From NCBI RefSeq assembly GCF_947496985.1, contig NZ_CANMEZ010000001.1:372001-436000 (forward strand): a stretch of DNA of 64,000 nt, read 5' to 3'. This stretch comes from an uncultured Kordia sp. GTDB taxonomy: Bacteria > Bacteroidota > Bacteroidia > Flavobacteriales > Flavobacteriaceae. Shown piece after piece: positions 9,894 to 23,327 of this stretch. The first letter of the stretch is position 1. Each line of letters begins with the position of its first letter. The translations under genes and the position numbers were made by a program. The notes beneath the pieces are model-generated. The model was not told the DNA's origin and did no database searches. It saw nothing but the letters and a program-made list of their open reading frames with translations.

Positions 9894-10325
9894 TTAACGA
9901 TTCATGTTCTTGATTTCGTCTTTAAAATCTTCTGAATCAACTCCTTTACCTACTAACATTAATGCCTTGTGCACAACATATGAAACATTTTCAGGAGAAA
10001 ATCCTAATCCAATTCCTAAACGTTCTAAAATAACAGTTTGTTTTGGACCTAATTCATGATCAGCATATACCATACGCGTTAAATCATATAAACGATCCAA
10101 ACGCTCGTTGTACATTGTTGGCGGATTGATTGGATGTGATCTGTAATCTTTTAAAATTTCTTTGTAATTACTTTCAGAGATATCTAAATTTCTCGCCATT
10201 CTATCTAAAAACGCTTTCTCCTCATCTGTAATAACATCATCACTCATAGCAACACGTACAATTGCTGCAAAATGATCTTGATTTCTTTCACGAAATCCAC
10301 TTGAATATAAATCTGATATAGACAT
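9894..10325 (-). CDS. TerB-family (tellurite-resistance-type) helical protein
   Basis: The 143-residue protein is all-helical, with the paired acidic motif MSDDVITDEEKAFLDRMA (about 28-45) and a second half VYADHELGPKQTVILERLG, typical of TerB/TerB-like domains that bind metal or sense membrane stress. There is no signal peptide or membrane segment. Its biochemical role is not established for most homologues. It is monocistronic, with a perfect -7 box upstream at 10345-10352 and a shared terminator downstream. Confidence 0.8.
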   Translation of the reverse strand: MSISDLYSSGFRERNQDHFAAIVRVAMSDDVITDEEKAFLDRMARNLDISESNYKEILKDYRSHPINPPTMYNERLDRLYDLTRMVYADHELGPKQTVILERLGIGLGFSPENVSYVVHKALMLVGKGVDSEDFKDEIKNMNR

Positions 10326-10344
10326 TTCTTAATTTTTAGTCTTG

Positions 10345-10352
10345 CAAATATA
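10345..10352 (-). promoter_or_regulatory. -7 box TATATTTG for the TerB-like gene
   Basis: Perfect TAnnTTTG on the minus strand, 20 bp upstream of the ATG at 10325. Confidence 0.6.
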
Positions 10353-10448
10353 AATAATCTATCGTCTTTTATAGTCTGTTGCTTTATAATTTTTATTGTG
10401 AAATTAGATTCTTAAATTATTGAAAAAATGTAGTATTAGTATCATTGA

Positions 10449-11171
10449 TTAGCAATTAGTATCAACTCCTTTATTCTTCAACACAATTTCTGCTGCTTTT
10501 ACAGCATTTTCTTGATATTTACTTTTATTATTTAAAATTACACAAAGCTCTTTTTCACTTTTAGAGGCAAACTTTTTTATAATTCTATCAATATCATTTT
10601 TTTCTATTTGTCTTTTTAATTTAATAGCTTTCTTTGAATTAGACGTTTTTATATACGGAAAGGCCCTAAACTGATACGTTGTATTTTTTACAAAAGCATG
10701 CTCATGCAAAAAGTCAACAATCAAATTTGAAATATAATATCTATCACCATTCTTAAATTTCAAGTCCCAATATCCAAAATCAGAATGAAACATTAGTTCT
10801 TTTCCAAAATTGTCAAGTAAATTTTCGTAATAATTGCCTAAATGATATGTTGATGTTTCTATTTCTGAAAATTTATATGTCTTAGAACATTTTTTTTCCT
10901 TGATTTTTATAAAATTAGATGAAGAATCTATTTCTACAGTCATTTTTTTGTTGTGATAATAATAATCTGTCCAAAGAAAAATAACTGGAAAGTTTAAAAA
11001 AAGTATGATTCCTGGAAGAATCATAAGTAAAAAAAAGTAATATTCAACTTCTTCAAGACCATTAATAGTCCAAAGAATAAAGAAAAAAATAATTAAAACA
11101 ATACTATAAAATAAGTTGTTCTTTAAAACAGTTTTTAGAAGTGTATTATTTAATCTATATGTTTTTCTCAA
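10449..11171 (-). CDS. Hypothetical membrane protein
   Basis: The 240-residue protein is not one I recognise. Two hydrophobic helices at about residues 18-36 and 43-66 are followed by a soluble region rich in Lys and aromatic residues. A YYHNKK segment follows the second helix, which suggests that the remainder faces the cytoplasm. A C-terminal helical segment (about 195-240) ends with Cys. Base composition is somewhat more AT-rich than the neighbours. No operon partner is evident: it is flanked by TerB, reading in the same direction, and by the divergent mfd. Confidence 0.6.
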   Translation of the reverse strand: MRKTYRLNNTLLKTVLKNNLFYSIVLIIFFFILWTINGLEEVEYYFFLLMILPGIILFLNFPVIFLWTDYYYHNKKMTVEIDSSSNFIKIKEKKCSKTYKFSEIETSTYHLGNYYENLLDNFGKELMFHSDFGYWDLKFKNGDRYYISNLIVDFLHEHAFVKNTTYQFRAFPYIKTSNSKKAIKLKRQIEKNDIDRIIKKFASKSEKELCVILNNKSKYQENAVKAAEIVLKNKGVDTNC

Positions 11172-11286
11172 GTTTTAAAAGACTTTATTTTAATCACTTC
11201 TAAGGTGAAAAATTAAACCCATTTTAAATAAAACTTAAGCAAGTAAATTTGCACAACATTTTTTATAATTTATGATATCAGCATAG

Positions 11287-11294
11287 TATATTTG
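11287..11294 (+). promoter_or_regulatory. -7 box TATATTTG for mfd
   Basis: Perfect TAnnTTTG match 19 bp upstream of the GTG start at 11314. It supports that start and leaves a leader of about 12 nt. Confidence 0.6.
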
Positions 11295-11313
11295 TATCTA
11301 AATTTTTTCAACC

Positions 11314-14300
11314 GTGAGTATAGCTAAAATCTCGCAACATTTTTTACAATCTCCTGAACTTAGGAAATTGGGGCAAGCTATTGCCAAAAATCAAGAAAAA
11401 GTACATGTAAAAGACCTTACAGGATCAAGTTTGTCGTTTGCTGTTGCCGAAGTTTTTAAGCAAAGTGAAATGCCATTTTTGTTTATTTTGAATGATAAAG
11501 AAGAAGCTGCGTATTACCTGAATGACTTGGAACATTTGTTAAATGATAAAGATGTTCTTTTTTATCCTGGAAGCTATCGCAGACCGTATCAAATTGAAGA
11601 AACAGATAACGCCAATGTATTACTACGTGCAGAAGTTTTGAACAGAATCAATTCACGTAAAAAACCTTCATTAATTGTTACGTATCCAGATGCGTTGTTT
11701 GAAAAGGTAGTCACACGAAAAGAGTTAGAAAAAAATACCCTTAAGATTTCGTTGAATGATAAGTTATCAATTGATTTTGTTAATGAAACCTTGTTTGAAT
11801 ACAATTTCAACAGAGTAGATTTTGTCACGGAACCTGGCGAATTTTCGGTTCGTGGTGGAATTGTAGATGTATATTCGTTTTCAAATGATGAACCGTACCG
11901 AATTGAGTTTTTTGGCGATGAAGTGGATAGCATGCGAACGTTTGATGTAGAAACACAATTGTCTACAGAAAAGGTAAAGAAGATCAGCATTATTCCTAAT
12001 GTTGAAAATAAAGCTTTGCAAGAATCTCGCGAAAGCTTTTTAAAATATATTCCTGGAAAAACAATCGTTTTTGCAAAAAATACAGAATTACTTTTAGGTC
12101 GAATTGATAAATTATTTGGAAAAGCCACTACCGCTTTCACTGAATTATCGGAAGATATCAAACACAATACTCCTGAAGAATTATTCTGTACAAAAACATT
12201 ATTGCAACGTCAGTTTTTAGAGTACACTATTGTAGAATTAACAGCAAATCCATTGTTAAAAGCAGATACTTTTATTGCTTTTAATACAACGCCACAACCT
12301 TCATTCAATCGTCAATTTGATTTATTAATTGAAAATTTAGACGAAAATCACGAAAAAGGATATACCAATTATATTACGTGTGTAAGTGAGCAACAAGCCA
12401 AGCGTTTTCATGATATTTTTGATGATGTTGAACAAAAAGTACATTATGAAACCATTGTACTTCCGTTGTATCAAGGATTCATCGATCACAATCAAAAAGT
12501 AGTTTGCTACACAGATCATCAAGTTTTTGAACGTTACCATAAGTTTCACTTAAAAAATGGGTATGCTAAAAAACAAGCCATTACGCTGAAAGAATTGACC
12601 AATTTAGAAATTGGCGATTATGTAACACATATTGATCATGGAATTGGGAAATTTGGTGGTTTAAAAAAGATTGATGTCGAAGGAAAGAAACAAGAAGCCA
12701 TCAAATTGATTTATGGTGAACGCGATATTTTATACCTCAGCATTCATTCATTACACAAGATTACAAAGTTTAACGGGAAAGACGGAAAAGCTCCAAAAAT
12801 ATATAAATTAGGTTCAGGTGCTTGGAAAAAACTCAAGCAAAAAACCAAAGCGCGCGTAAAACACATTGCATATAACTTAATTGAATTATATGCAAAACGA
12901 CGCATGAAAAAGGGAATCCAATACGGCCCTGATACACATTTACAACACGAATTAGAAGCTTCTTTTATTTATGAAGATACACCCGATCAATCTAAAGCTA
13001 CAGAAGATGTAAAAGCAGACATGGAAAGCGAACGTCCGATGGACAGATTGGTTTGTGGAGATGTTGGTTTTGGAAAAACGGAAGTAGCTATCAGAGCTGC
13101 ATTTAAAGCTGTTGACAATGGAAAGCAAGTTGCTATTTTGGTTCCGACAACTATTTTAGCGTTTCAACATTTTAAAACATTTAGCGAACGTTTAGTTGAT
13201 ATGCCAATTACAGTAGATTATTTAAACCGTTTCAGAAGCACAAAACAACGCAATGAAGTAATTTCTGGGCTTGAAAAAGGAAATGTTGATATTGTTATTG
13301 GAACACATCAATTGGTGAACAAGGCTGTAAAATTTAAAGACCTTGGTTTATTAATTATTGATGAAGAACAAAAGTTTGGTGTTGCCGTAAAAGATAAACT
13401 CAAAACTATTAAGGAAAATGTAGACACACTTACCTTAACTGCAACACCGATACCGAGAACGCTACAATTTAGCTTGATGGCTGCGCGTGATTTATCAGTT
13501 ATTAATACACCGCCACCAAATCGTTATCCAATTGAAACCAACGTAATTCGTTTTCAAGAGGAAACCATTCGTGATGCCGTGAGTTATGAAATTCAGCGTG
13601 GTGGACAAGTATTTTTTATTCATAACAGAATTGAAAATATTAAAGAAGTTGCTGGTATGATTCAGCGTTTGGTTCCAGATGCTAAAATTGGAATCGGACA
13701 CGGACAAATGGACGGAAAAAAGCTTGAAAAACTCATGCTTGCTTTTATGAATGGTGAATTTGATGTATTGGTTTCTACTACTATTATTGAAAGTGGTTTG
13801 GATGTTCCGAATGCAAATACAATTTTTATTAATAATGCTAATAATTTTGGCTTAAGTGATTTACATCAGATGCGTGGACGTGTTGGGCGAAGCAATAAAA
13901 AAGCATTTTGTTATTTTATTACGCCTCCAGATTCTGTAATGACACAAGATGCCCGAAAACGAATTAATGCATTGGTACAGTTTTCAACTTTAGGAAGTGG
14001 TTTCAATATTGCCATGAAAGATTTAGAAATTCGTGGTGCAGGAGATTTATTAGGTGGTGAACAAAGTGGATTTATTAATGAAATCGGATTCGAAACCTAT
14101 CAAAAAATATTAAACGAAACTATTGAAGAACTCAAAGAAAACGAGTTTAAAGATTTGTATGAAGATCAAGAAAGCAAAAAAGAAAAAGTATTTTTAAAAG
14201 AAACGCAAATTGACACCGATTTTGAATTGTTGTTTCCTGACGCATACATAAATACGGTAACAGAACGTTTGGTTTTATATAATAAATTAAGTGTTTTAAA

Positions 14301-14655
14301 AACCGAAGAAGAATTGCAAGTTTATGAAAATGAACTTATTGACAGATTTGGCCCATTACCAAAACCTGCTATCGCTTTGTTAGATTCGGTTCGTATGAAA
14401 TGGATTGCCTCAAAACTAGGTTTGGAAAAAATTATTATGAAAAAAGGAAAGATGGTTGGTTATTTTATTTCCGATCAACAATCTGATTTCTACCAAAGTC
14501 CTATTTTCACACAAATATTACAGTTTGTACAGCAAAATCCATCGATTTGCACAATGAAAGAAAAACAAACCCGAAACGGCTTGCGTTTATTGCTTACTTT
14601 TGATCGTATTACGTCTGTAAAAAAAGCATTGCAAGTATTACAGAAAGCAATTTAA
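11314..14655 (+). CDS. mfd: Transcription-repair coupling factor Mfd
   Basis: The 1113-residue ATP-dependent translocase removes stalled RNA polymerase from DNA lesions and recruits the UvrAB repair machinery. The N-terminal UvrB-like region (about 30-300) is followed by the RNA-polymerase-interaction (CarD-like) domain near residue 431 (LEIGDYVTHIDHGIGKFGG). The RecG-like helicase has its Walker A GDVGFGKT near 582, LIIDEEQKFGV near 681 and TATPIPRTLQFS near 712. The C-terminal TRCF domain is at about 960-1060. The start is GTG. An in-frame upstream ATG was not seen, and the -7 box at 11287 fits this start. It is a housekeeping gene with normal length. Confidence 0.96.
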   Translation: MSIAKISQHFLQSPELRKLGQAIAKNQEKVHVKDLTGSSLSFAVAEVFKQSEMPFLFILNDKEEAAYYLNDLEHLLNDKDVLFYPGSYRRPYQIEETDNANVLLRAEVLNRINSRKKPSLIVTYPDALFEKVVTRKELEKNTLKISLNDKLSIDFVNETLFEYNFNRVDFVTEPGEFSVRGGIVDVYSFSNDEPYRIEFFGDEVDSMRTFDVETQLSTEKVKKISIIPNVENKALQESRESFLKYIPGKTIVFAKNTELLLGRIDKLFGKATTAFTELSEDIKHNTPEELFCTKTLLQRQFLEYTIVELTANPLLKADTFIAFNTTPQPSFNRQFDLLIENLDENHEKGYTNYITCVSEQQAKRFHDIFDDVEQKVHYETIVLPLYQGFIDHNQKVVCYTDHQVFERYHKFHLKNGYAKKQAITLKELTNLEIGDYVTHIDHGIGKFGGLKKIDVEGKKQEAIKLIYGERDILYLSIHSLHKITKFNGKDGKAPKIYKLGSGAWKKLKQKTKARVKHIAYNLIELYAKRRMKKGIQYGPDTHLQHELEASFIYEDTPDQSKATEDVKADMESERPMDRLVCGDVGFGKTEVAIRAAFKAVDNGKQVAILVPTTILAFQHFKTFSERLVDMPITVDYLNRFRSTKQRNEVISGLEKGNVDIVIGTHQLVNKAVKFKDLGLLIIDEEQKFGVAVKDKLKTIKENVDTLTLTATPIPRTLQFSLMAARDLSVINTPPPNRYPIETNVIRFQEETIRDAVSYEIQRGGQVFFIHNRIENIKEVAGMIQRLVPDAKIGIGHGQMDGKKLEKLMLAFMNGEFDVLVSTTIIESGLDVPNANTIFINNANNFGLSDLHQMRGRVGRSNKKAFCYFITPPDSVMTQDARKRINALVQFSTLGSGFNIAMKDLEIRGAGDLLGGEQSGFINEIGFETYQKILNETIEELKENEFKDLYEDQESKKEKVFLKETQIDTDFELLFPDAYINTVTERLVLYNKLSVLKTEEELQVYENELIDRFGPLPKPAIALLDSVRMKWIASKLGLEKIIMKKGKMVGYFISDQQSDFYQSPIFTQILQFVQQNPSICTMKEKQTRNGLRLLLTFDRITSVKKALQVLQKAI

Positions 14656-14735
14656 TTGTTTTGGCTTAATTATTGAATTCATTTAATTTTAATAATTAAA
14701 ATGAGTTCTTCAATAGATTCTAAAAAAAGAATATT

Positions 14736-16064
14736 ATGATTAGAAAATTACTTTTTATTCTCTGTATGATTCCGTTATGCTTACAAGCACAGAAAAGCAT
14801 TTCGGGTACATTTTCACCTGCTGAAGATTATAAATGGTTTATTGTGTATAAGTTAAAAACCACACATCAAGAATATATTGACAATGGGAAGATTGTAGAT
14901 GGAAAACTACAGTACACCTTTAAAGAAGATGCACCAACAGGTATGTATCGTTTAGTGTATGGAATGCCACAAGAGTCTGAAAATTTCGATTTTATTTATA
15001 GCGGAACGGAAGATATAATCTTCGTTTTTGATGAAAAAGGTTCAGAGTTTACTACTTCGAAAGAAAATAAACTAAACACTTCTTATTTTTCAAGTGTGAA
15101 TTTGGTTAAAAGAGAAATTAACGAGTTCTACCAAAGTGGCCAAACCAACAAAGAAGCGTTTTTAGCAATTTTTAAAACACTACAGGACACACAAGATATT
15201 TTTGAAAAAGAAGCTGCAGGAACTATCGCGTACGAGTTTATAAAAGCAAGTAGAGCATATATTCCAATGAAATATGAAGAACCTGCAGAAATGGTTGAAA
15301 ATATTAGAAAGCATTATTTCGACCATGTTGATTTTTCAAATCTACAATTGCAAAACTCAGATTTTATTGCTGATAAGATTTCGAATTATGTTTTTACCGC
15401 ATTGCCATTGAAAGAATATACTGGAGAGGAATTAATTGAAGCCTATAAAACAAATATTGATGTTGTTTCAAAAAAGATAGCAACTGTTCCTGTTGCTTAT
15501 CAGAAAACATTGTTTACTGTATTGTGGGAACAAATGGTTGTATTGGAAAATGATGCTATTGCTATTTATGTAGCTGACAAATATTTGATTTCATTAGCAA
15601 AACAGCTAAACGATGCTGAGTTAGTTAAAAAGTTAGAAACACATAAGCGTTTGGCTTTTGGTGAAGTGGCTCCAGAAATTACATGGAAAAAAGATACTAA
15701 AACACATAAATTAAGCGAACAAGAAGGTGCCGAAAACTATATCATCGTTTTTTGGAGTAGTACTTGTTCACACTGTTTGAAAGAGTTTCCAAAATTAAAA
15801 GCTTTTGTAGAAGGTCAGGAAAAAGGCAAGTTTCAAGTTATTGCTGTTGGTTTGGAAGACGAACGTGCAAGTTGGGCAAATGAAACGTCTTTTTATCCAG
15901 GTTTTACACATATATTAGGTTTAGGAAAGTGGGACAATGAAATTGGAAATATGTATGACGTAACTTCTACGCCAACATTTTTTGTGTTAGATAAAGACAA
16001 ACGTATTATAGGAAAACCGTATGGTGTAAAAGAGTTGGAAGAGTTTTTTACAACAGAAGAATAG
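14736..16064 (+). CDS. Periplasmic TlpA/thioredoxin-like protein
   Basis: The 442-residue protein starts with a signal peptide (MIRKLLFILCMIPLCLQAQ). Its long N-terminal half (about 20-300) is helical and beta-rich, of the kind found before Bacteroidota thioredoxin domains (DUF4369-like, tentative). The C-terminal thioredoxin domain (about 310-442) carries the redox motif WSSTCSHCLKEFP with Cys344 and Cys347, and the cis-Pro loop in TSTPTFFVLD. The likely role is thiol-disulfide exchange in the periplasm. It is flanked by mfd 80 bp upstream and a strong terminator downstream, so it appears monocistronic. Confidence 0.88.
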   Translation: MIRKLLFILCMIPLCLQAQKSISGTFSPAEDYKWFIVYKLKTTHQEYIDNGKIVDGKLQYTFKEDAPTGMYRLVYGMPQESENFDFIYSGTEDIIFVFDEKGSEFTTSKENKLNTSYFSSVNLVKREINEFYQSGQTNKEAFLAIFKTLQDTQDIFEKEAAGTIAYEFIKASRAYIPMKYEEPAEMVENIRKHYFDHVDFSNLQLQNSDFIADKISNYVFTALPLKEYTGEELIEAYKTNIDVVSKKIATVPVAYQKTLFTVLWEQMVVLENDAIAIYVADKYLISLAKQLNDAELVKKLETHKRLAFGEVAPEITWKKDTKTHKLSEQEGAENYIIVFWSSTCSHCLKEFPKLKAFVEGQEKGKFQVIAVGLEDERASWANETSFYPGFTHILGLGKWDNEIGNMYDVTSTPTFFVLDKDKRIIGKPYGVKELEEFFTTEE

Positions 16065-16080
16065 TTTTCACAATAAAATT

Positions 16081-16128
16081 AAAAAAGAAGGTCGTTTAAA
16101 AATTAATTTTTAAACGACCTTCTTTTTT
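16081..16128. terminator. Strong bidirectional terminator
   Basis: A perfect 48-bp palindrome: 16081-16104 is the exact reverse complement of 16105-16128, with A- and T-runs at its ends. It sits between the convergent thioredoxin-like gene and FG-GAP gene. Confidence 0.9.
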
Positions 16129-16130
16129 AA

Positions 16131-18617
16131 TTACAGTTTAATCACTTTCTGTGTTTGCGTTCCATTTGCCGTTTGAATTTTCACAAAGTAGAGTCCTTTA
16201 GACAACCCTTTCATTTGTATTTTATCTAACGATTGAGATTCTGCTGTAAATTGCTTTACCATTTTTCCTGATAGATTGTATACCGTAATTTTTTCTATGT
16301 TTTTATTAGTTTCAAAAAACAATTCATTTACTACGGGGTTTGGAAATACTTTAATTGCATTCGTACTATTATTGAATTCATCTATACTTAATGGATTTAT
16401 CAAATCATTTCTATGCCATGTTATTTTTCCACTTTCCGCCGAAGTAGAAAGTATATCCATATCACCATCACTATCAAAATCAACCACACACATACTATTC
16501 ACATTCAGCACATTTTGTGAAATTATTTGTTGTGGCCCAAAATCCCCTAATCCATCTAAGTTTTCATACCAAGCTATCTTACTATCTAAAAAAGAAGAAG
16601 ATATAATATCCATATCACCATCATTGTCTACATCTGCCGTGTGTACTTGCCCAGGTTGGTTGGTACTCGTAGTAACTATTTGTCGTTCTGAAAATGTTCC
16701 TTGTCCGTCTATATTTTTGTAACTGACAATTCTATTGGCTGATGACACAGAAACGACTAAATCTTTATCTCCATCTCCATCAATATCTCCCATGTGTGTA
16801 TTATTTGGTCTGAGTTCAGTAGTATGCGTAGCCACTTCTGAAGATGCAAATGTTCCTAGACCATCTGTGTTTTTAAACAAAAAAACACGATTAGCTTGCG
16901 ACATAGAAGCCATTAAATCGATATCACCATCATTATCAACATCATTAAGACCTACATGCAGTATATAGCTAGTTGAATTTGTAGGTATTATTTGTTCTGA
17001 ACTAAAGTTTCCTTGTCCGTCTAAGTTTTTAAACCACATTAATGTGCCTGTTCCCATACTATTTGAAACCGTAACAATGTCTATATCGCCATCGCCGTCA
17101 ATATCTCCTACATCTAAAAAGAATACTTGATTAACGGTTGTTGAAATTACTTGTTCTGGCCCAAAATTTCCTTGTCCATCCAAGTTTTCGTACCAGGCAA
17201 TTTTGTTATCAAATCTTGAAGCAGATATCGCATCCATATCACCATCACCATCTATATCTGCAATTTTAAGAGCTTCCGCATTGTCGGCATAGGTTGTTAT
17301 AATTTTTTGATTTGCAAAACCTCCTTGATTGTCTAAATTTTCATACCAAGCAACTTTATCTGACCAAGAAGACACAAATAGGATTTCCAAATCATTGTCA
17401 TTGTCTAAATCTGCTACTTGAATTGCTCCTATAGATCGAGTTCCTGCTATTAATATGTTTTGTGATCCAAAACCTCCTTGTCCATCGGTATTTTCATACC
17501 AAGCAACACTATCATCTGTAGAGGAAGCTGCCAAAATATCTAAATCATTATCGTTATCAAAGTCTACTGCTGCTATTGCCATTCCACTGGTATTATCTGT
17601 ATTTACAAATTGTGCAAGACTAAAATCCCCTTGTCCATCTGTATTTTCATACCAAGTTATTCTATTCTGAATCCATTCTACAGATAAAATATCTAAATCG
17701 CCATCACCATCCATATCAGCTATTGACAAATCAGCATTGATTTCTTCTGTAATTGCAATTGTTTGTTGTGCCCCAAAGTTTCCCTGTCCGTCAAGGTGTT
17801 CAAACAAGCCTATTTTTTTATCGTCTTTGGAAGAAGAAATGATATCTAAATCGCCGTCATTATCTAGATCAGCAGTTTTTACAAAGCTTCCATCTTCTAT
17901 TTCATTAGAAATTATTTCATAGTTGCTAAAGGATCCTTGTCCGTCTAAGTTTTCATATAATAAAAGAAAACTGTTTGTTATTGACAAAACATCTAAGTCT
18001 CCGTCATTATCAATATCTACTGGATGTATTGTAGAGTCATATGTATTCGTTGTGATGATTTGCCGTGCTCCAAAGTTAGCTTGTCCATCAATATTTTCAA
18101 GCCAATAAATACTATTATCATACTGCCTGGAGTTTGAAATAATGTCTAAATCGCCATCATTATCTACATCACCAATATAAAACTGAAATAAACCATTAAT
18201 CCCTGTCAGAATTGTTTGTGGCGCATTAAAGCTTTCATTATCTCCTAAGTTTTCAAACCATACTATTTTGCTATTTCCTCCAAGGACTCTACAGATAATG
18301 TCATTATCTCCATCATTATCTATATCTGCAATACGAAGTACTAGTGGTGTATTTGAAGTTGTTACTAAAACTTTTTGTTCACTGTGATTAATATTTCCAT
18401 CAATGTTTTCAAACCAAACAATGTTCGAATTATCTTCTGACGCAAATAGTAAATCAACGTCTCCATCATTATCAAAATCCATTGGCAAAAAAGAGGTCAT
18501 TCTTGCGGGTCTCATTGTATTATCCATAACCACTTCATCTTCAAAAGTGACTTGTGCTGAGGAAAATTGCACACTAAATATTGCAAATACAATTGTGAGG
18601 AAGTAACTATTTTTCAT
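16131..18617 (-). CDS. Secreted FG-GAP/VCBS repeat protein with type IX sorting domain
   Basis: The 828-residue protein has a signal peptide (MKNSYFLTIVFAIFSVQFSSAQ), about 14 FG-GAP/VCBS-like blades and a type IX secretion C-terminal sorting domain. Each blade is about 50 residues with a calcium-binding loop such as DIDNDGDLDVL or DFDSDGDMDIL and a WYENxDGQG-type linker. The sorting domain runs over about the last 75 residues (VFPNPVVNELFF, GLYFVKI, ending KVIKL). It should be exported by T9SS and displayed on or released from the outer membrane as a beta-propeller adhesion or binding protein; the ligand is unknown. Its promoter carries the same operator and spacing as the two nearby peptide genes and the second regulator gene, so I infer that it belongs to their regulon. 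Confidence 0.93.
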   Translation of the reverse strand: MKNSYFLTIVFAIFSVQFSSAQVTFEDEVVMDNTMRPARMTSFLPMDFDNDGDVDLLFASEDNSNIVWFENIDGNINHSEQKVLVTTSNTPLVLRIADIDNDGDNDIICRVLGGNSKIVWFENLGDNESFNAPQTILTGINGLFQFYIGDVDNDGDLDIISNSRQYDNSIYWLENIDGQANFGARQIITTNTYDSTIHPVDIDNDGDLDVLSITNSFLLLYENLDGQGSFSNYEIISNEIEDGSFVKTADLDNDGDLDIISSSKDDKKIGLFEHLDGQGNFGAQQTIAITEEINADLSIADMDGDGDLDILSVEWIQNRITWYENTDGQGDFSLAQFVNTDNTSGMAIAAVDFDNDNDLDILAASSTDDSVAWYENTDGQGGFGSQNILIAGTRSIGAIQVADLDNDNDLEILFVSSWSDKVAWYENLDNQGGFANQKIITTYADNAEALKIADIDGDGDMDAISASRFDNKIAWYENLDGQGNFGPEQVISTTVNQVFFLDVGDIDGDGDIDIVTVSNSMGTGTLMWFKNLDGQGNFSSEQIIPTNSTSYILHVGLNDVDNDGDIDLMASMSQANRVFLFKNTDGLGTFASSEVATHTTELRPNNTHMGDIDGDGDKDLVVSVSSANRIVSYKNIDGQGTFSERQIVTTSTNQPGQVHTADVDNDGDMDIISSSFLDSKIAWYENLDGLGDFGPQQIISQNVLNVNSMCVVDFDSDGDMDILSTSAESGKITWHRNDLINPLSIDEFNNSTNAIKVFPNPVVNELFFETNKNIEKITVYNLSGKMVKQFTAESQSLDKIQMKGLSKGLYFVKIQTANGTQTQKVIKL

Positions 18618-18640: not shown

Positions 18641-18648
18641 CAAAACTA
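18641..18648 (-). promoter_or_regulatory. -7 box TAGTTTTG for the FG-GAP gene
   Basis: Perfect TAnnTTTG on the minus strand, 23 bp upstream of the ATG at 18617. The inverted repeat at 18696-18708 is centred 57.5 bp upstream of its centre. Confidence 0.65.
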
Positions 18649-18695
18649 GCTATTCATTTGCAACAAAAAGCTTCAAAACCCCTTGTATAATCTAT

Positions 18696-18708
18696 GATTC
18701 CGTGAATT
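18696..18708 (-). promoter_or_regulatory. Putative regulon operator, copy 1 (AATTCACGGAATC)
   Basis: Read in the direction of transcription the site is GACAATTCACGGAATC, one base away from the perfect inverted repeat AATTCnnnGAATT found at 19222. It lies upstream of the FG-GAP gene promoter at the same spacing as the other copies. Confidence 0.7.
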
Positions 18709-18800
18709 GTCAGTTGTTTTTAGGTCGGTTTCTGTTTTTTTTAATTCTTGATGGATTGGGAAGATGTTTGTTTTTATAGTATTGATCTTAATAATTTTCA

Positions 18801-18838
18801 AAAAAAAGGTTGAAACTAATTAGTTCCAACCTTTTTTT
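18801..18838 (-). terminator. Terminator of peptide gene 1
   Basis: A 17-nt arm at 18801-18817 pairs with 18822-18838 (one G-U in the minus-strand RNA) around an AATT loop. On the minus strand it ends in a run of seven T. It lies 28 bp after the stop codon of the peptide gene. Confidence 0.8.
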
Positions 18839-18865
18839 AATAGTTATAATTAATCTCTTAAATTA

Positions 18866-19141
18866 TTAAGGATTCGTTTTATTTGTGTCACACAAGTGAT
18901 TACCTTCATCACTGATATCACCACCAATAGTACATAAGGGAAATCCTGAATTATTATTACAATGACCATCACATGAATCGTCACATGTTTCATAAGTAGG
19001 TCCGCATTCTGGTCCTCTAGAATTTTGACAAGTATTTATTGCGCTCATTTCCACAGGAACAGTTCCTCCTTTTATAGAATTTAATTTCAAGTTTGCAATA
19101 CTTACTTTTCTTAAATCGAGTTTAATCTTTTTCGTTTTCAT
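18866..19141 (-). CDS. GG-leader, Cys-rich precursor peptide 1
   Basis: The 91-residue peptide has a Bacteroidota GG-type leader, KIKLDLRKVSIANLKLNSI ending in KGG at residue 26, then a core with seven Cys and many Asn, Asp, Gly, Ser and Thr residues. The leader pattern (hydrophobic residues alternating with Lys, then IxxL, then GG) resembles leaders of class I lanthipeptide-like or other RiPP precursors in this phylum. Cleavage after GG by a C39-type peptidase exporter is expected but none is encoded here. The core could also be disulfide-bonded rather than modified. It sits 94 bp after regulator gene 1, with its own operator, -7 box and terminator. Confidence 0.8.
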   Translation of the reverse strand: MKTKKIKLDLRKVSIANLKLNSIKGGTVPVEMSAINTCQNSRGPECGPTYETCDDSCDGHCNNNSGFPLCTIGGDISDEGNHLCDTNKTNP

Positions 19142-19166
19142 TATGTTAAATAATTTTTAGATTACT

Positions 19167-19174
19167 CAAAACTA
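19167..19174 (-). promoter_or_regulatory. -7 box TAGTTTTG for peptide gene 1
   Basis: Perfect TAnnTTTG, identical to the box of the FG-GAP gene, 25 bp upstream of the ATG at 19141 and 57.5 bp (centre to centre) downstream of the operator at 19222-19234. Confidence 0.65.
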
Positions 19175-19221
19175 CATATCAAAAACGTAAGGAACACGCA
19201 AAACAGGGTATGAGAAACGGT

Positions 19222-19234
19222 AATTCCGTGAATT
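19222..19234 (-). promoter_or_regulatory. Putative regulon operator, copy 2 (AATTCACGGAATT)
   Basis: Perfect inverted repeat AATTC-n3-GAATT, extended to GACAATTCACGGAATT in the transcription direction. It ends one base after the stop codon of regulator gene 1 and lies upstream of peptide gene 1. Confidence 0.75.
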
Positions 19235-19235
19235 G

Positions 19236-20927
19236 TCATTTATTTTTTTGATCTTCTAATATTTTTCTAATAAAATAAGAAGGTTTTAAACCTGTCTTTT
19301 TTTGAAATGCTCTCGAAAAACCTTCTGGATTCGAAAAGCCTATTTCTTCAGCAATGGCTCGAATAGTATATTTTTGATATTTGGTATCTTCTTGAATATG
19401 ATGTATGAAATAATCAATTCGTAAATCGTTTATATATGTTGAAAAGTTTTTATGTTTATGAGAGTTTATAATTTTTGACAAGTATTTTGAGTTTGTTTCC
19501 GCATTTTTTGCGACTTCTTTAAGAGAGATTTGATGTATTAGATATGTTTCTTCTCGCTCAAAAATTTCTAATTTTCGGAGAACCTCTGCGACTATCTCTT
19601 CATCTATTTCTAATGATACCACTTGTGCTTTTGTATCTTTTATAACAATTTTATCTTCTTCTATGATTGCCTTAGATTTTTGTATAATTTCATTGTACCG
19701 TTTTTCATATTTCTTTTTTAATGCTCGATAGTAAAACAATATTCCTACTATTATCGAGATAAGTAGAATACTTAGCATAAGAATTATTTTCTTCTCTCGC
19801 CCAATCAGTTCATTTTCTTCTTGAAGCTCATTAATTAAACGTTCTTTGTTAGACATAAGTGAAGGAATATCATATTTTTTTGAGATATTCTTATATATAT
19901 ACTTGTATTCCGAATGAATAATACTGTCTATTTTTATGAGCTGGTTAGTATAATATAACTGTTGTTCTTTATCATTTTTTTGCTTTGCATCATCTATTAA
20001 ATATACATAGGAATCGCGTAAAGGAGGAAATAGATTGTTGGTTGCATTGAAAACAGAGTCAATTTTTTTAAAATAAAGTAACCCTTTTTCTTTTTTGTTA
20101 GATGAATAATAACTTTTCCCTAGATAAAAGTCTAACACAGGTCTGTTAACATCATTAGTGTAAGGATATCCTTTTTTTAAACTGTCTATGGAAGCTTTAT
20201 ATTCACCTTTCAAATTTAGGTTGATTCCTTCATTAGTTATAAAAGAGTAGTACATGAATGTATTACTGCTGCTTTTTGACAACTCAATTCCTTTTTTATT
20301 CATCTCAGTACTCTTTGAAACCTGTTGGGTTTCATAGTAAATAGATGATAATTGAAATAAGACCTGAATATATCTACTAACAAACATTTTTTCTGCATTT
20401 TCCTCATATGCCTTATATTCTAGAAAAAGTTTTTCTGCTTCTTCATATTCTCCTAAAAACCGTTTTAGCAAACCTATATTAAACTTTATTGCAAATTTAT
20501 ATTTGATATTGGGATTCAATTTTTCTGCGGCAGCGGCAAGAAAGTAATTATCTAAAGCTGGTTGGTATTTTTTAGCCTTAAAAAATTGATGCGCTTTATT
20601 CATATAACCTTGCATAGGAAATATCTCATCTCCTTTTATGTGTTGCGTATATGAAATTGCACTATCCAAGTATTGATGTTTTTTTGCTACATCTAAACTT
20701 TGTATTGCAAGTAAATAGAAACCTCCTCCAATAAGCCTGTTATCTTTAGTGTTTTTTGCCTTCTCTAAATATTTAGTAGCAAGTATTTCTTTTTGCTCAG
20801 GTTTTATTTCTTTGTTTCGAAATTGCTTTCGCAACGATGCAAACTCCTCAAGCATTGCATTTTTATCTTGTGCAACCGTGATCATTCCTACAAAAAACAA
20901 AATTGTAAACAGTATGGGTTTCTTCAT
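19236..20927 (-). CDS. Transmembrane TPR-AraC regulator 1
   Basis: The 563-residue protein is a membrane one-component regulator. It starts MKKPILFTILFFVGMITVAQ (signal peptide or signal anchor). A helical TPR-like domain (about 25-375), a single membrane helix (about 383-403) and a charged linker precede a C-terminal AraC/XylS-type double HTH (about 465-560, with IRAIAEEIGFSNPEGFSRAFQKKTG). The TPR part should face the periplasm and the HTH the cytoplasm. I prefer the start at 20927 over an upstream in-frame ATG at 20996 because a perfect -7 box lies between them and a signal peptide then begins the protein. It is a paralogue of the protein at 21526-23217; their HTH regions are nearly identical, including the recognition segment, so they may bind the same operator. 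Confidence 0.9.
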   Translation of the reverse strand: MKKPILFTILFFVGMITVAQDKNAMLEEFASLRKQFRNKEIKPEQKEILATKYLEKAKNTKDNRLIGGGFYLLAIQSLDVAKKHQYLDSAISYTQHIKGDEIFPMQGYMNKAHQFFKAKKYQPALDNYFLAAAAEKLNPNIKYKFAIKFNIGLLKRFLGEYEEAEKLFLEYKAYEENAEKMFVSRYIQVLFQLSSIYYETQQVSKSTEMNKKGIELSKSSSNTFMYYSFITNEGINLNLKGEYKASIDSLKKGYPYTNDVNRPVLDFYLGKSYYSSNKKEKGLLYFKKIDSVFNATNNLFPPLRDSYVYLIDDAKQKNDKEQQLYYTNQLIKIDSIIHSEYKYIYKNISKKYDIPSLMSNKERLINELQEENELIGREKKIILMLSILLISIIVGILFYYRALKKKYEKRYNEIIQKSKAIIEEDKIVIKDTKAQVVSLEIDEEIVAEVLRKLEIFEREETYLIHQISLKEVAKNAETNSKYLSKIINSHKHKNFSTYINDLRIDYFIHHIQEDTKYQKYTIRAIAEEIGFSNPEGFSRAFQKKTGLKPSYFIRKILEDQKNK

Positions 20928-20947
20928 AAAAACTGTTGTATTTGTAA

Positions 20948-20955
20948 CAAATATA
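20948..20955 (-). promoter_or_regulatory. -7 box TATATTTG for regulator 1
   Basis: Perfect TAnnTTTG, 21 bp upstream of the chosen ATG at 20927 and inside the longer open frame, which argues for the downstream start. There is no AATTCnnGGAATT copy at the expected distance, only a weaker AATCAAGATT repeat near 21002-21011. Confidence 0.6.
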
Positions 20956-21100
20956 GTTGAAAACGATGTCGACGTATATTTATAATAGGTATTCACCTAA
21001 TAATCAAGATTTAAAATGTCACGAGGTTTATCTCAATTTTATATAATAACTAATACAATAACAGTCACTATATTCTTCGTTGGAATTTAAAAAAGAAAAG

Positions 21101-21123
21101 CAGAAAAGTAAGGCGCTTTTCTG
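21101..21123 (-). terminator. Terminator of peptide gene 2
   Basis: CAGAAAAG at 21101-21108 pairs with CTTTTCTG at 21116-21123 around a 7-nt loop, followed on the minus strand by a T-rich tract. It lies 39 bp past the stop of peptide 2. Confidence 0.7.
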
Positions 21124-21161
21124 TTTTTATTTTATGAGTTTTAGAATATTTTAATAACTAC

Positions 21162-21428
21162 TTATCCTGAAACTTGCGAACCATTTTGTGTAGTGTCTGT
21201 TTGATCTTCTTTAGTACAACCGTTTCGAATGTCTGTTCTTCCTGCAAATACTGTACATTCGTAAGGATAAGATTGAGCCTGATTACAGTAACAAGAGTTT
21301 CCTTGTGTTTGGTCATTAGGGTTTGTATTATGACAAGGGAAACTATCTGTTCCTCCACTGACACTAAGAATTTTTAAGTTTGCAATTTTAAATTTTTTAA
21401 ATTGTAATACTCTCTTTTTTTTGTTCAT
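21162..21428 (-). CDS. GG-leader, Cys-rich precursor peptide 2
   Basis: The 88-residue peptide has a leader parallel to peptide 1 (FKIANLKILSVSGG, GG at 25-26; compare VSIANLKLNSIKGG). Its core has five Cys and is rich in Asn, Gln, Thr and Ser. Leader conservation with core divergence is what is expected for RiPP or secreted peptide precursors. It follows regulator 2 by 97 bp, repeating the regulator 1-peptide 1 arrangement exactly, with its own operator and -7 box. No modifying enzyme is adjacent, so whether the core is lanthionine-, disulfide- or otherwise modified is open. Confidence 0.8.
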   Translation of the reverse strand: MNKKKRVLQFKKFKIANLKILSVSGGTDSFPCHNTNPNDQTQGNSCYCNQAQSYPYECTVFAGRTDIRNGCTKEDQTDTTQNGSQVSG

Positions 21429-21458
21429 TTCAATGATTTTTTAAAATTTGAATATGCT

Positions 21459-21466
21459 CAAATCTA
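21459..21466 (-). promoter_or_regulatory. -7 box TAGATTTG for peptide gene 2
   Basis: Perfect TAnnTTTG, 30 bp upstream of the ATG at 21428; centre 58.5 bp downstream of the operator centre at 21521. Confidence 0.65.
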
Positions 21467-21514
21467 TGAATTCATTTAGTAATATTAGATGAGAATTTGC
21501 CTCTTGCAAACTAC

Positions 21515-21527
21515 AATTCCGTGAATT
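21515..21527 (-). promoter_or_regulatory. Putative regulon operator, copy 3 (AATTCACGGAATT)
   Basis: Perfect inverted repeat identical to copy 2. It overlaps the stop codon of regulator gene 2 and lies upstream of peptide gene 2. Confidence 0.75.
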
Positions 21528-23217
21528 ATTGTTTTTTTTGCTCGTTTTCCCTAACTTTTTTAATGAAATAAGAAGGTTTTAGCCCTGTCTTTTTTTGAAA
21601 AGCTCTAGAAAACCCTTCTGGATTTGAGAATCCTATTTCTTCTGCAATAGCACGAATCGTATATTTTTGATATTTTGTATCTATTTGTATATGGTTTACT
21701 AAATAATCAACTCGTAAATCATTGATATAGGTTGCAAAGTTTTTGTTTTTATGAGAATTGATAATCTTTGATAAATACTTAGAGTTTGTGTTGACTATTT
21801 TGGCGACATCTTTCAGTGAAATTTGATTGATTAAATACGCTTCTCCTTTTTCAAATGTATCTAGTGTTTGTAAAACTTCTTCAACAATATGCTGATCAAT
21901 TCCTAAAGGAACTGCTTGTAATTTGGTGCTTTTCACTACAATTTCCTCTTCAATAATTGCATTTGATTGTTGTATGATATCATTATAGCGTTTTTCGTAG
22001 CGTTTTTTCAGGTTATAGTAATACCCAAGCAAACTAATAATTAATATTCCTAAAATACTTCCAAGAATAACAATCCAATTTTTCTCTTTTGTGATACGCC
22101 TATTTTTTCCTTCTAATTTTTCAATTAAACGATCTTTACTTGCTACATATGCTGGTATGTCATATTTTTTAGAAATATTTTTAGATAAATACCTATAATC
22201 TGCATGAATAGTACTATCAATTTTCAATAATTGCCTTGTATAATATAACTCCTTTCGTTCATCTTTTTTAGCTTTTGCATTATTAATTAGATATACATAT
22301 GATTCTCGTAATGGAGGGAAAAGGTCTTTATTTTTATTATAAAATGTATCTACTTTTTTGAAATAGTCAATTGCTTTTTGTTTTTTTCCTAAAGCATGAT
22401 AGTTTTTACCCAAATAAAACTCCGCAACAAGTACATCATCTGCTTTTAAATGAGGAATTGATTTTAAAATAGCATCAATAGAAACCTCATAATTCCCTTT
22501 TACATATGAATTTATACCTTCATTAATTGTAAAAGCGTAATAAAAAAAGTCATTTTTATTCGCTTGTGCTAGTTTGATTCCTTTAGTATTGAGTGCTGTT
22601 GCTTTTTCAGTTTGTGCCGTTTCATAATACACTGACGATAGTTGAAGCAATGTATATAAATAGTTATTCACATACATTTTATCTTTAGATTCCTCATACA
22701 ACATACATTCTATCAAAAGTTTTTCAGCTTCATCATACTCTTGGGAGACACGTTTTAGAATCGCTATGTTATTCTTCATGTCGTATTCAGCTGTTGCATT
22801 TCCACTAGACTGGGCTGCATCCACCGCTAAAAGATAGCTATTTAATGCTTCCGGATAATCCTTGTTATAATATAATGTGAGTCCTTTTGTTATATATGGA
22901 AATAAAGGAAATTTTTGATCTCCTTTTATGTCTTTTGTATAGTAAATAGAACTATCTAAATACTGTATCCTTTCTTTGAATTCGAAGTTTTTTATAGCTA
23001 ATAAGTAATACCCACGACCAATAAATCGATTCTCACCTGTTTTTTGAGCTTTAACTAAATAACTGCGACCAAGTATTTTGGCATCTTCACTACTAACGCT
23101 CGTATCTCGAAATTGCTTCTTAAGCTTATTATATTCTTTTAATAAGTCATTTTCATTTTGTGCAAAAACAGTAGTTCCTATCAAAATAAGGCATGTATAC
23201 AATATCAAGTTCTTCAT
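21526..23217 (-). CDS. Transmembrane TPR-AraC regulator 2
   Basis: The 563-residue protein has the same plan as regulator 1: signal peptide MKNLILYTCLILIGTTVFAQ, TPR-like periplasmic domain (about 25-375), membrane helix (about 383-403, IVILGSILGILIISLLGYYY), linker and C-terminal AraC-type HTH (about 465-560). The C-terminal halves of the two proteins are nearly the same, while the TPR domains have diverged more, as expected if they sense different ligands but read the same DNA site. The start at 23217 rather than 23283 is supported by the -7 box at 23238-23245. Two operators lie upstream, so autoregulation is likely. Confidence 0.9.
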   Translation of the reverse strand: MKNLILYTCLILIGTTVFAQNENDLLKEYNKLKKQFRDTSVSSEDAKILGRSYLVKAQKTGENRFIGRGYYLLAIKNFEFKERIQYLDSSIYYTKDIKGDQKFPLFPYITKGLTLYYNKDYPEALNSYLLAVDAAQSSGNATAEYDMKNNIAILKRVSQEYDEAEKLLIECMLYEESKDKMYVNNYLYTLLQLSSVYYETAQTEKATALNTKGIKLAQANKNDFFYYAFTINEGINSYVKGNYEVSIDAILKSIPHLKADDVLVAEFYLGKNYHALGKKQKAIDYFKKVDTFYNKNKDLFPPLRESYVYLINNAKAKKDERKELYYTRQLLKIDSTIHADYRYLSKNISKKYDIPAYVASKDRLIEKLEGKNRRITKEKNWIVILGSILGILIISLLGYYYNLKKRYEKRYNDIIQQSNAIIEEEIVVKSTKLQAVPLGIDQHIVEEVLQTLDTFEKGEAYLINQISLKDVAKIVNTNSKYLSKIINSHKNKNFATYINDLRVDYLVNHIQIDTKYQKYTIRAIAEEIGFSNPEGFSRAFQKKTGLKPSYFIKKVRENEQKKQ

Positions 23218-23237
23218 AAACAGGTAGTATTTCAAAA

Positions 23238-23245
23238 CAAATATA
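23238..23245 (-). promoter_or_regulatory. -7 box TATATTTG for regulator 2
   Basis: Perfect TAnnTTTG, 21 bp upstream of the ATG at 23217. Its centre is 58.5 bp downstream of the operator at 23294-23306. Confidence 0.65.
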
Positions 23246-23293
23246 ACTGAAAAGTTATGTAAAGTTGGTTGTTTTTCTCTCAAGCTTTATGAC

Positions 23294-23306
23294 AATTCCG
23301 CGAATT
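23294..23306 (-). promoter_or_regulatory. Putative regulon operator, copy 4 (AATTCGCGGAATT)
   Basis: Perfect AATTC-n3-GAATT inverted repeat, oriented towards regulator gene 2. It is paired with copy 5; the two centres are 21 bp apart, about two helical turns. Confidence 0.75.
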
Positions 23307-23314
23307 AAAGGTGC

Positions 23315-23327
23315 AATTCAAGGAATT
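23315..23327 (+). promoter_or_regulatory. Putative regulon operator, copy 5 (AATTCAAGGAATT)
   Basis: Perfect inverted half-sites. The GG that marks one side of the other copies is here oriented towards the plus-strand peptide operon. The only nearby plus-strand -7-like sequence (TTGTTTTG at 23365-23372) is imperfect and about one helical turn closer than in the other promoters, so control of this operon is less certain. Confidence 0.6.

Follow-up and report, generated by a model that had tools for sequence, protein, structure and literature searches.

The stretch of DNA considered here, a 64,000-nucleotide window from an uncultured Kordia sp. (C1:372001-436000 of the 5.48-Mb genome G000), carries a 13-bp inverted repeat that, to judge from sequence comparison, very probably acts as the activator operator of one clade of membrane-anchored AraC-type regulators; the regulator, its linked peptide and a set of secreted proteins would form the regulon. 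The motif AATTCRCGGAATT, its spacing from the promoter, its link to a single helix-turn-helix (HTH) clade, its co-occurrence with that clade and the pairing of regulator and peptide genes are established by computation. An earlier note on this DNA had proposed that the repeat is the operator of paralogous AraC-type regulators and that their targets form one regulon. Fixed spacing, the HTH-clade match and co-occurrence all support this proposal. The four genes assigned to the regulon, encoding an FG-GAP surface protein, two peptides and regulator 2, were borne out as predicted members, but the set was too narrow; other peptides with a leader ending in GG and secreted proteins in a 47.5-bp spacing class also appear to belong.

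All five inverted repeats described in the window are present, as are four perfect TAnnTTTG boxes (–7 boxes), and the centres of the first four repeats lie 57.5, 57.5, 58.5 and 58.5 bp from those of their boxes, as had been measured (Table 1). Exact AATTCnnGGAATT occurs four times, all within 4.1 kb, against a mean of 0.17 in shuffled sequence, and none of 100 shuffles reaches four; the repeat at 18696 is one base short of the pattern. When two mismatches are allowed the count is unremarkable (72 in the window and 55.6 in shuffles, with eight of 100 shuffles reaching 72). The fifth repeat, at 23315, is the upstream partner of the site at 23294, lying 21 bp from it and 79.5 bp from the box of regulator 2. 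This spacing is retained in four other Kordia loci. From its position, the 23294 operator is likely to be an autoregulation site of regulator 2.

In the genome as a whole there are 26 exact strand matches to AATTCnnGGAATT, a fully symmetric place being scored twice, compared with two for the reversed pattern. Ten of the 26 read AATTCRCGGAATT, a form with an RC core, of which 80 copies are found across 11 Kordia genomes compared with one for a reversed control pattern. Our own gene calls place 59 of these copies between genes and 21 inside them. In the window's own genome, two of the ten RC-core copies lie in genes and eight are intergenic, seven of the latter being phased to a box. The remaining 16 strand matches, without an RC core, are mostly boxless and random-looking, the exceptions being the 23315 site and one copy on C19. 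Many random boxless copies would, according to the earlier note, speak against an operator; such copies are present for the loose pattern (most of the 16), and with seven of the eight intergenic RC-core copies phased the outcome is mixed but favourable. Two details of the original description did not survive. The idea that the central two bases are free was dropped because the enrichment sits in the AC/GC core. A fixed polarity, with one common reading in the direction of transcription, was likewise abandoned, since ACG and CGT readings both occur at promoters. Separately, the 13-mer is found inside a 257-residue gene in four genomes (L188, L195, L209 and L214), where it looks like conserved coding sequence.

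The spacing between site and promoter follows a simple rule. Boxes of the form TAnnTTT[AG] were counted at each gap from 15 to 119 bp, in both directions, around the 59 intergenic copies of AATTCRCGGAATT, the centre distance being the gap plus 10.5 bp. Ten boxes occur at gap 37, 11 at gap 47, nine at gap 48 and four at gap 69, with three or fewer at any other gap. These classes correspond to centre distances of 47.5 bp (10 boxes), 57.5/58.5 bp (20) and 79.5 bp (4), approximately one and two helical turns apart, and compare with expected counts of 0.26, 0.53 and 0.26, respectively. Removal of similar promoters (directions at least 60% alike; 78 of 118 left) leaves 8, 10 and 3 boxes against 0.2, 0.4 and 0.2 expected. 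Around the 21 intragenic copies only two boxes are found over all gaps, neither of them at a class gap. The 47.5-bp class is a second spacing class, present elsewhere than at the window promoters.

The promoters are of three types. Regulator promoters have gap 48, the box TATATTTG and, in the aligned promoters, a second site 21 bp upstream. Promoters of peptides encoded behind a regulator have gap 47 and mostly the box TAGTTTTG, peptide 2 of the window having gap 48, while promoters of other peptides and of secreted proteins have gap 37 and mostly TACnTTTA. The absence of a constant –33 TTTG element, remarked on previously, holds in the class consensuses, where none stands out; in its place, in classes 47 and 48, TgAAT (peptide promoters) or CTTTTC (regulator promoters) is conserved a few bases before the –7 box. 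In a scan for perfect 5-3-5 palindromes in the 59 box-bearing promoters among 128 regulator and peptide promoters, AATTC-n3-GAATT stands almost alone at gaps 47 and 48, with about half of the loci coming from the AATTC clade and some overlapping, so that the counts are not independent.

The arrangement extends to named species. Among named organisms, regulator 1 has its closest relatives in Kordia jejudonensis (68% identity over the best segment), K. algicida OT-1, Kordia sp. TARA and a Kordia metagenome-assembled genome. In these four, out of six loci found, the regulator is divergent from one or more GG-leader peptide genes, with two sites 21 bp apart between them, some copies carrying one or two mismatches; the three longer loci also have one copy at the regulator stop codon. 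The Kordia layout was not seen at a Flagellimonas locus whose regulator is 27% identical to regulator 1. Beyond the window genes, the candidate regulon in the same genome includes peptides on C13 and C14. In other genomes a box in the 47.5-bp class precedes genes for an M4 metallopeptidase, a DUF5018/lectin protein and an NHL/T9SS protein (T9SS, type IX secretion system). An upstream site without a strict box of an accepted class is found for T9SS-sorted, DUF285/PKD and transglutaminase-core proteins. Ten of 18 listed downstream proteins were searched against Pfam, and all ten have a domain match.

The operator sequence follows the DNA-binding domain of the adjacent regulator. In a quick tree built from the last 120 residues of 83 peptide-linked regulators, with no bootstrap, 15 of the 16 AATTC-n3-GAATT operators fall to one HTH clade (Shimodaira–Hasegawa-like approximate likelihood ratio support of 99%). 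Operator classes, assigned by our own patterns with 16 of the 83 rows fitting none, require 18 changes on this tree compared with 41.4 for shuffled labels. Mean identity within the clade is 77% for the HTH part and 48% for the tetratricopeptide repeat (TPR) part. Several clade regulators have the operator in common while their sensor domains have diverged, so that a single regulon would receive several inputs.

Clade regulators and operators also occur together. Tallies of clade regulators, made by hand, and of phased intergenic sites (a strict box at gap 36, 37, 47, 48 or 69) are, respectively, 3 and 7 in G000, 2 and 9 in G001, 1 and 3 in G002, 1 and 2 in G003, 2 and 3 in G004, 1 and 3 in G006, 1 and 2 in G007 and 4 and 6 in G009. 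Both are zero in G005, G008 and G010, the three genomes of the 11 in which clade regulators are absent. The Spearman correlation is 0.91, a value that rests on 11 related genomes and is to that extent less telling.

Several further observations weigh against the operator interpretation. The site AATTCACGGAATT is found, intergenic and 226–231 bp from a gene with a His_kinase domain, in four Kordia genomes, G002, G005, G007 and G010 (loci L197, L206, L219 and L239). In G005 and G010, which have no clade regulators, this site is nevertheless accompanied by a looser box (TATTTTTC at gap 49 and TATATTTT at gap 47); if the looser box is counted, each has one phased site and the co-occurrence argument is weakened. 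G010 also encodes a 41% relative that was counted outside the clade; beside it are a box at gap 37 and variant sites, AATTCAGGGAATT with a second one at a distance of 21 bp. At locus L058 an operator of the AATTC type accompanies a regulator from outside the clade. No strict box is found at the expected distances for 24 of the 59 intergenic copies, including that at L068, and for the divergent peptide genes of the window, from 23419 onwards, neither neighbouring site is followed by a box at a fixed distance. Finally, one site, at L199, forms a strong hairpin (z –4.1), the sole one among eight that were folded.

An alternative that we consider rather unlikely is that the regulators do bind the repeat but repress, the linked peptides being antimicrobial or lanthipeptide-like and the regulator sensing something else. 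The site lies clear of the promoter, some 58 bp ahead of the –7 box, a position that does not suit this alternative. At AraC-family promoters a non-overlapping upstream site is unusual for simple repression. The alternative is also opposed by the protease gene that follows the peptide in 25 of 73 Kordia cassettes and eight of ten from other genera. It gains, on the other side, from a class I lanthipeptide cluster (LanC and a split LanB) that adjoins a regulator of this family, from the failure to find coevolution between TPR domain and peptide core, and from the LxLxK-GG leaders known, as outlined in one report, for Bacteroidetes lanthipeptides (PMC7268733).

It is improbable that an unrelated DNA-binding protein, such as a global regulator of secretion or envelope stress, recognises the repeat and has the AraC-type paralogues only as targets. 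Such a protein would account for sites before genes that do not adjoin a regulator, and for the intergenic site with a looser box retained in two genomes without clade regulators. It would not be expected from the way in which the operator sequence tracks the HTH clade of the adjacent regulator, from the other palindromes that other clades carry in the same interval, or from the lack of sites phased to a strict box in clade-less genomes. An RNA element, either a rho-independent terminator or a hairpin behind the regulator gene, is very improbable and was dropped as a general explanation: although the 19222 and 21515 sites lie next to or on regulator stop codons and the L199 repeat is part of a longer, 14-bp hairpin with a run of U at the end of its 3′ arm, only one of the eight sites folds clearly better than shuffled sequence (z –1.9 to 0.6 for the four sites of the window), the 13-mer is also found upstream of regulator and surface-protein promoters, and a fixed distance to a –7 box is not expected of a terminator.

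For the activator operator, a mechanism can be proposed. From its signal-peptide-like N-terminus the regulator would continue into a TPR superhelix, probably located outside the cytoplasm, cross the membrane in a single helix and end in an AraC-type HTH within the cytoplasm. We infer direct binding of the repeat, and activation rather than repression. Binding would take place approximately 58 bp upstream of the –7 box, one helical turn closer (47.5 bp) or in tandem 21 bp apart. The HTH domains would occupy the repeat, some 65 bp ahead of the start, and touch RNA polymerase from a single helix face, hence activation, a step modelled on AraC-type activators and resembling the manner of a class I AraC/CRP activator. 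The regulator would act on its own gene, on the GG-leader peptide gene that immediately follows, on further GG-leader peptides and on proteins that are secreted or located at the surface. Regulator promoters also carry the site, so feedback is likely. Gene order and the TPR fold suggest that the TPR domain, outside the cytoplasm, may sense a peptide; the linked GG peptide, once exported and trimmed, is a possible candidate.

Regulators 1 and 2 are 55% identical and have the same architecture. Their topology was read from the sequence and from a structural model. The model of regulator 1 (mean predicted local distance difference test score 83.6, predicted template modelling score 0.57, seven sequences) suggests a short N-terminal helix, a TPR superhelix over residues 24–340, a long helix over residues 354–419 with a hydrophobic stretch, and the HTH. 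HTH_18 and HTH_AraC exceed the curated cut-off in both P0001 (45.7 and 35.3 bits) and P0002 (44.4 and 36.2 bits), and Pfam TPR matches lie over the cut-off in P0002 and below it in P0001. A fold search returned LGN, a designed TPR and Rap–pheromone structures among the first 50 solved-structure matches; the TPR match is generic, as LGN and the designed TPR rank above the Rap–pheromone structures.

Parts of the system resemble four known ones. Class I activators of the AraC/XylS family have a C-terminal HTH_18/HTH_AraC domain, as do the Kordia regulators, and their sites, like the candidate operators, lie upstream of the core promoter without overlapping it; araI1–araI2 show the same 21-bp tandem, helical-turn spacing as the Kordia sites. 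The class I sites of AraC, RhaS and MarA are asymmetric and 17–20 bp long, whereas the Kordia site is a short 13-bp inverted repeat; the Kordia regulators differ further in carrying TPR and transmembrane regions, and their –7 box is of the Bacteroidota type. The RRNPP peptide-pheromone receptors (Rap, NprR, PlcR and PrgX) have a TPR superhelix, and their genes are immediately followed by that of a small peptide. The Kordia regulators share the TPR fold and an adjoining peptide gene (73 of 98), but their HTH is AraC-type and C-terminal, in place of an N-terminal XRE-type HTH or a Rap-type helical domain, and, unlike the cytoplasmic RRNPP proteins, they appear from sequence and model to be membrane-bound with the TPR outside the cytoplasm. 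Hybrid two-component systems (HTCS) of Bacteroidetes combine a periplasmic sensor, a transmembrane segment and HTH_18 in one protein, as the Kordia regulators do; unlike in HTCS, Pfam finds no histidine kinase or receiver domain in the window regulators.

The fourth comparison is with class I lanthipeptide precursors of the pinensin type (family NF038153), with which the peptides share an LxLxK and GG leader. The clade's regulator-linked peptides differ in having a leader of the K-x-KIANL type. When NF038153 was run on six window peptides, two scored below the cut-off of 22 bits (18.4 and 14.7) and four had no match. There is no LanB gene beside the window peptides, the sole LanB match in the genome being at C1:475412, about 80 kb from the operators. 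It belongs to the class I lanthipeptide cluster of locus L243, near which a regulator of the TPR–AraC family, GG peptides and an HlyD-type gene are found. The same genome contains 131 NF038153 matches up to E 1, about 35 of them over the cut-off by our own count and most on other contigs, and it is possible that a single LanB serves many orphan precursors.

The window regulators belong to a large family. Regulator 1 has 62 matches in its own genome at E 1e-5, approximately 38 of them near full length by our own count. A set of 98 regulators was taken from fetched loci in the 11 genomes, comprising 36 of the roughly 38 in the window's own genome and, for the other ten, those from an E 1e-60 list and the site loci. 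A GG-leader peptide gene lies in the same direction 40–160 bp behind the stop codon in 73 of the 98, compared with five of 305 other genes of at least 250 residues in the same loci, a figure that bounds the false positives of the peptide pattern (a hydrophobic-x-hydrophobic-x-K leader with GG or GA at residues 15–52). In the interval between regulator and peptide the best palindrome beats dinucleotide shuffles (p ≤ 0.05) in 33 of 73 Kordia pairs and four of ten pairs from other genera. Of the Kordia pairs with such palindromes, six belong to the AATTC clade (15 pairs in all) and 27 to the remaining Kordia clades (58 pairs). Among those 27, a box is found in 17 (nine at 46–48.5 bp, five at 56–58.5 bp and three elsewhere) and none in ten; over all 58 other-clade pairs, 21 have a box in either range, 14 elsewhere and 23 none. 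The palindromes differ between clades and include GTGATATTTATAAATATCAC, GCAATTTATAAATTGC, ATTCATGAAT and TTTTCACGGAAAA; TTTATAAA and TTTTCACGGAAAA also serve as labels of further regulator groups. The palindromes are best read as clade-specific activator operators of regulator–peptide cassettes, which together have the look of a so far undescribed family of control units linked to peptides.

Proteases accompany many of these cassettes, a subtilase or prolyl-oligopeptidase relative being encoded within 900 bp behind the peptide in the Kordia and other-genera fractions given above. From other genera, eight of eight next genes submitted to Pfam matched S8 or S9, a ninth listed gene that is not protease-like having been left out; for Kordia the result was five of seven next genes, in addition to the gene behind the G010 regulator. 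A search of the family found such a regulator at E 1e-45 in 38 of 249 genomes, two of them Kordia, and a search of the class gave a match at that threshold in nine of 395, with five and three candidates scored per genome, respectively, so that breadth outside the genus is under-sampled. Of 28 non-Kordia loci that were read, 11 have a peptide that passes the pattern adjoining the regulator and two more are similar.

It has been considered, tentatively, that the family carries out peptide signalling, with a membrane-anchored regulator that joins a periplasmic TPR receptor to a cytoplasmic AraC-type HTH, a GG-leader signal peptide encoded immediately after it, a secreted subtilase or prolyl oligopeptidase in many cassettes to trim or degrade the signal, and about 38 parallel channels. 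If so, clade-specific palindromic operators at two helically phased distances would serve these channels, the window operator being one channel in which several receptors share a regulon, and this would be a new kind of peptide signalling in Gram-negative Flavobacteriaceae. Coevolution was dropped as support for the linked peptide as ligand: between TPR and peptide core no signal was found in 71 of the 73 pairs, two with short regulators being left out (partial rank correlation given the HTH 0.012, null standard deviation 0.05; 0.145 for the leader). The null result is weak evidence against the linked peptide as ligand, since the cores are short and hard to align.

To our knowledge, Bacteroidota regulators with a known operator are few, and the phylum has no established case of peptide signalling. 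Among the papers listed by a search of the open-access literature, with subscription papers mostly outside it, none was seen to describe TPR–transmembrane–AraC regulators, the pairing of such regulators with GG peptides or the operators reported here. Related material has been outlined: Bacteroidetes class I lanthipeptides with LxLxK leaders ending in GG and a C39 protease (PMC7268733), the richness of Kordia in biosynthetic gene clusters (PMC10734526, PMC7477175), and, in a Bacteroidales survey, TPR genes beside clusters for ribosomally made peptides (RiPPs), with pheromone binding as a possible role (PMC10352776). With a defined 13-mer, a measured spacing rule and gene pairing in 73 of 98 cases, binding, activation and ligand are each directly testable in cultured Kordia. 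The system could explain the control of part of the many orphan GG-leader peptides, as judged by the 131 matches in one genome.

Table 1. Probable operators, –7 boxes and genes of the window, with related features at other loci
Feature	Position or locus	Strand	Remarks
Operator AATTCACGGAATC	18696..18708	-	Upstream of FG-GAP/T9SS surface protein gene; gap 47 to box
–7 box TAGTTTTG	18641..18648	-	Belongs to FG-GAP gene
Operator AATTCACGGAATT	19222..19234	-	Just 3′ of regulator 1 stop codon, upstream of peptide 1
–7 box TAGTTTTG	19167..19174	-	Belongs to peptide 1
Operator AATTCACGGAATT	21515..21527	-	Overlaps regulator 2 stop codon, upstream of peptide 2
–7 box TAGATTTG	21459..21466	-	Belongs to peptide 2
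Operator AATTCGCGGAATT	23294..23306	-	Regulator 2 promoter
–7 box TATATTTG	23238..23245	-	Belongs to regulator 2
Second operator copy AATTCAAGGAATT	23315..23327	+	Also faces divergent peptide genes
FG-GAP protein, 828 residues	16131..18617	-	C-terminal type IX secretion sorting domain; Pfam, NCBIfam
Peptide 1, 91 residues	18866..19141	-	Leader ending GG, Cys-rich C-terminal part; open reading frame, sequence
Regulator 1 (P0001), 563 residues	19236..20927	-	Signal-peptide-like start, TPR superhelix, transmembrane helix, HTH_18
Peptide 2, 88 residues	21162..21428	-	GG leader, Cys-rich; open reading frame, sequence
Regulator 2 (P0002), 563 residues	21526..23217	-	Architecture as regulator 1
Divergent GG-leader peptide, 59 residues	23419..23598	+	
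GG-leader peptide, 86 residues	23642..23902	+	Class I lanthipeptide leader model below cut-off
GG-leader-type peptide, 49 residues	23928..24077	+	No NCBIfam match
GG-leader peptide, 71 residues	25043..25258	+	Class I lanthipeptide leader model below cut-off
Class I lanthipeptide cluster	L243 (G000:C1:464000-483000), 10063-16338		LanC, LanB N- and C-terminal parts
Regulator, GG peptide, prolyl oligopeptidase or subtilase in a row	L276, L279, L280, L282, L283, L286, L287, others		
Regulator, GG peptide, protease in a row, other genera	L312, L315, L316, L318, L319, L328, L330, L331		

Peptides 1 and 2 have no Pfam or NCBIfam match up to E 0.1, and no protease gene lies directly behind the window's regulator-linked peptides. 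Another locus, L072, has AATTAAGGGAATT at 9108 and 9528, in each case some 27 bp upstream of the start codon of a GG-peptide gene; the two genes are in tandem, and the distance is too short for the usual spacing.

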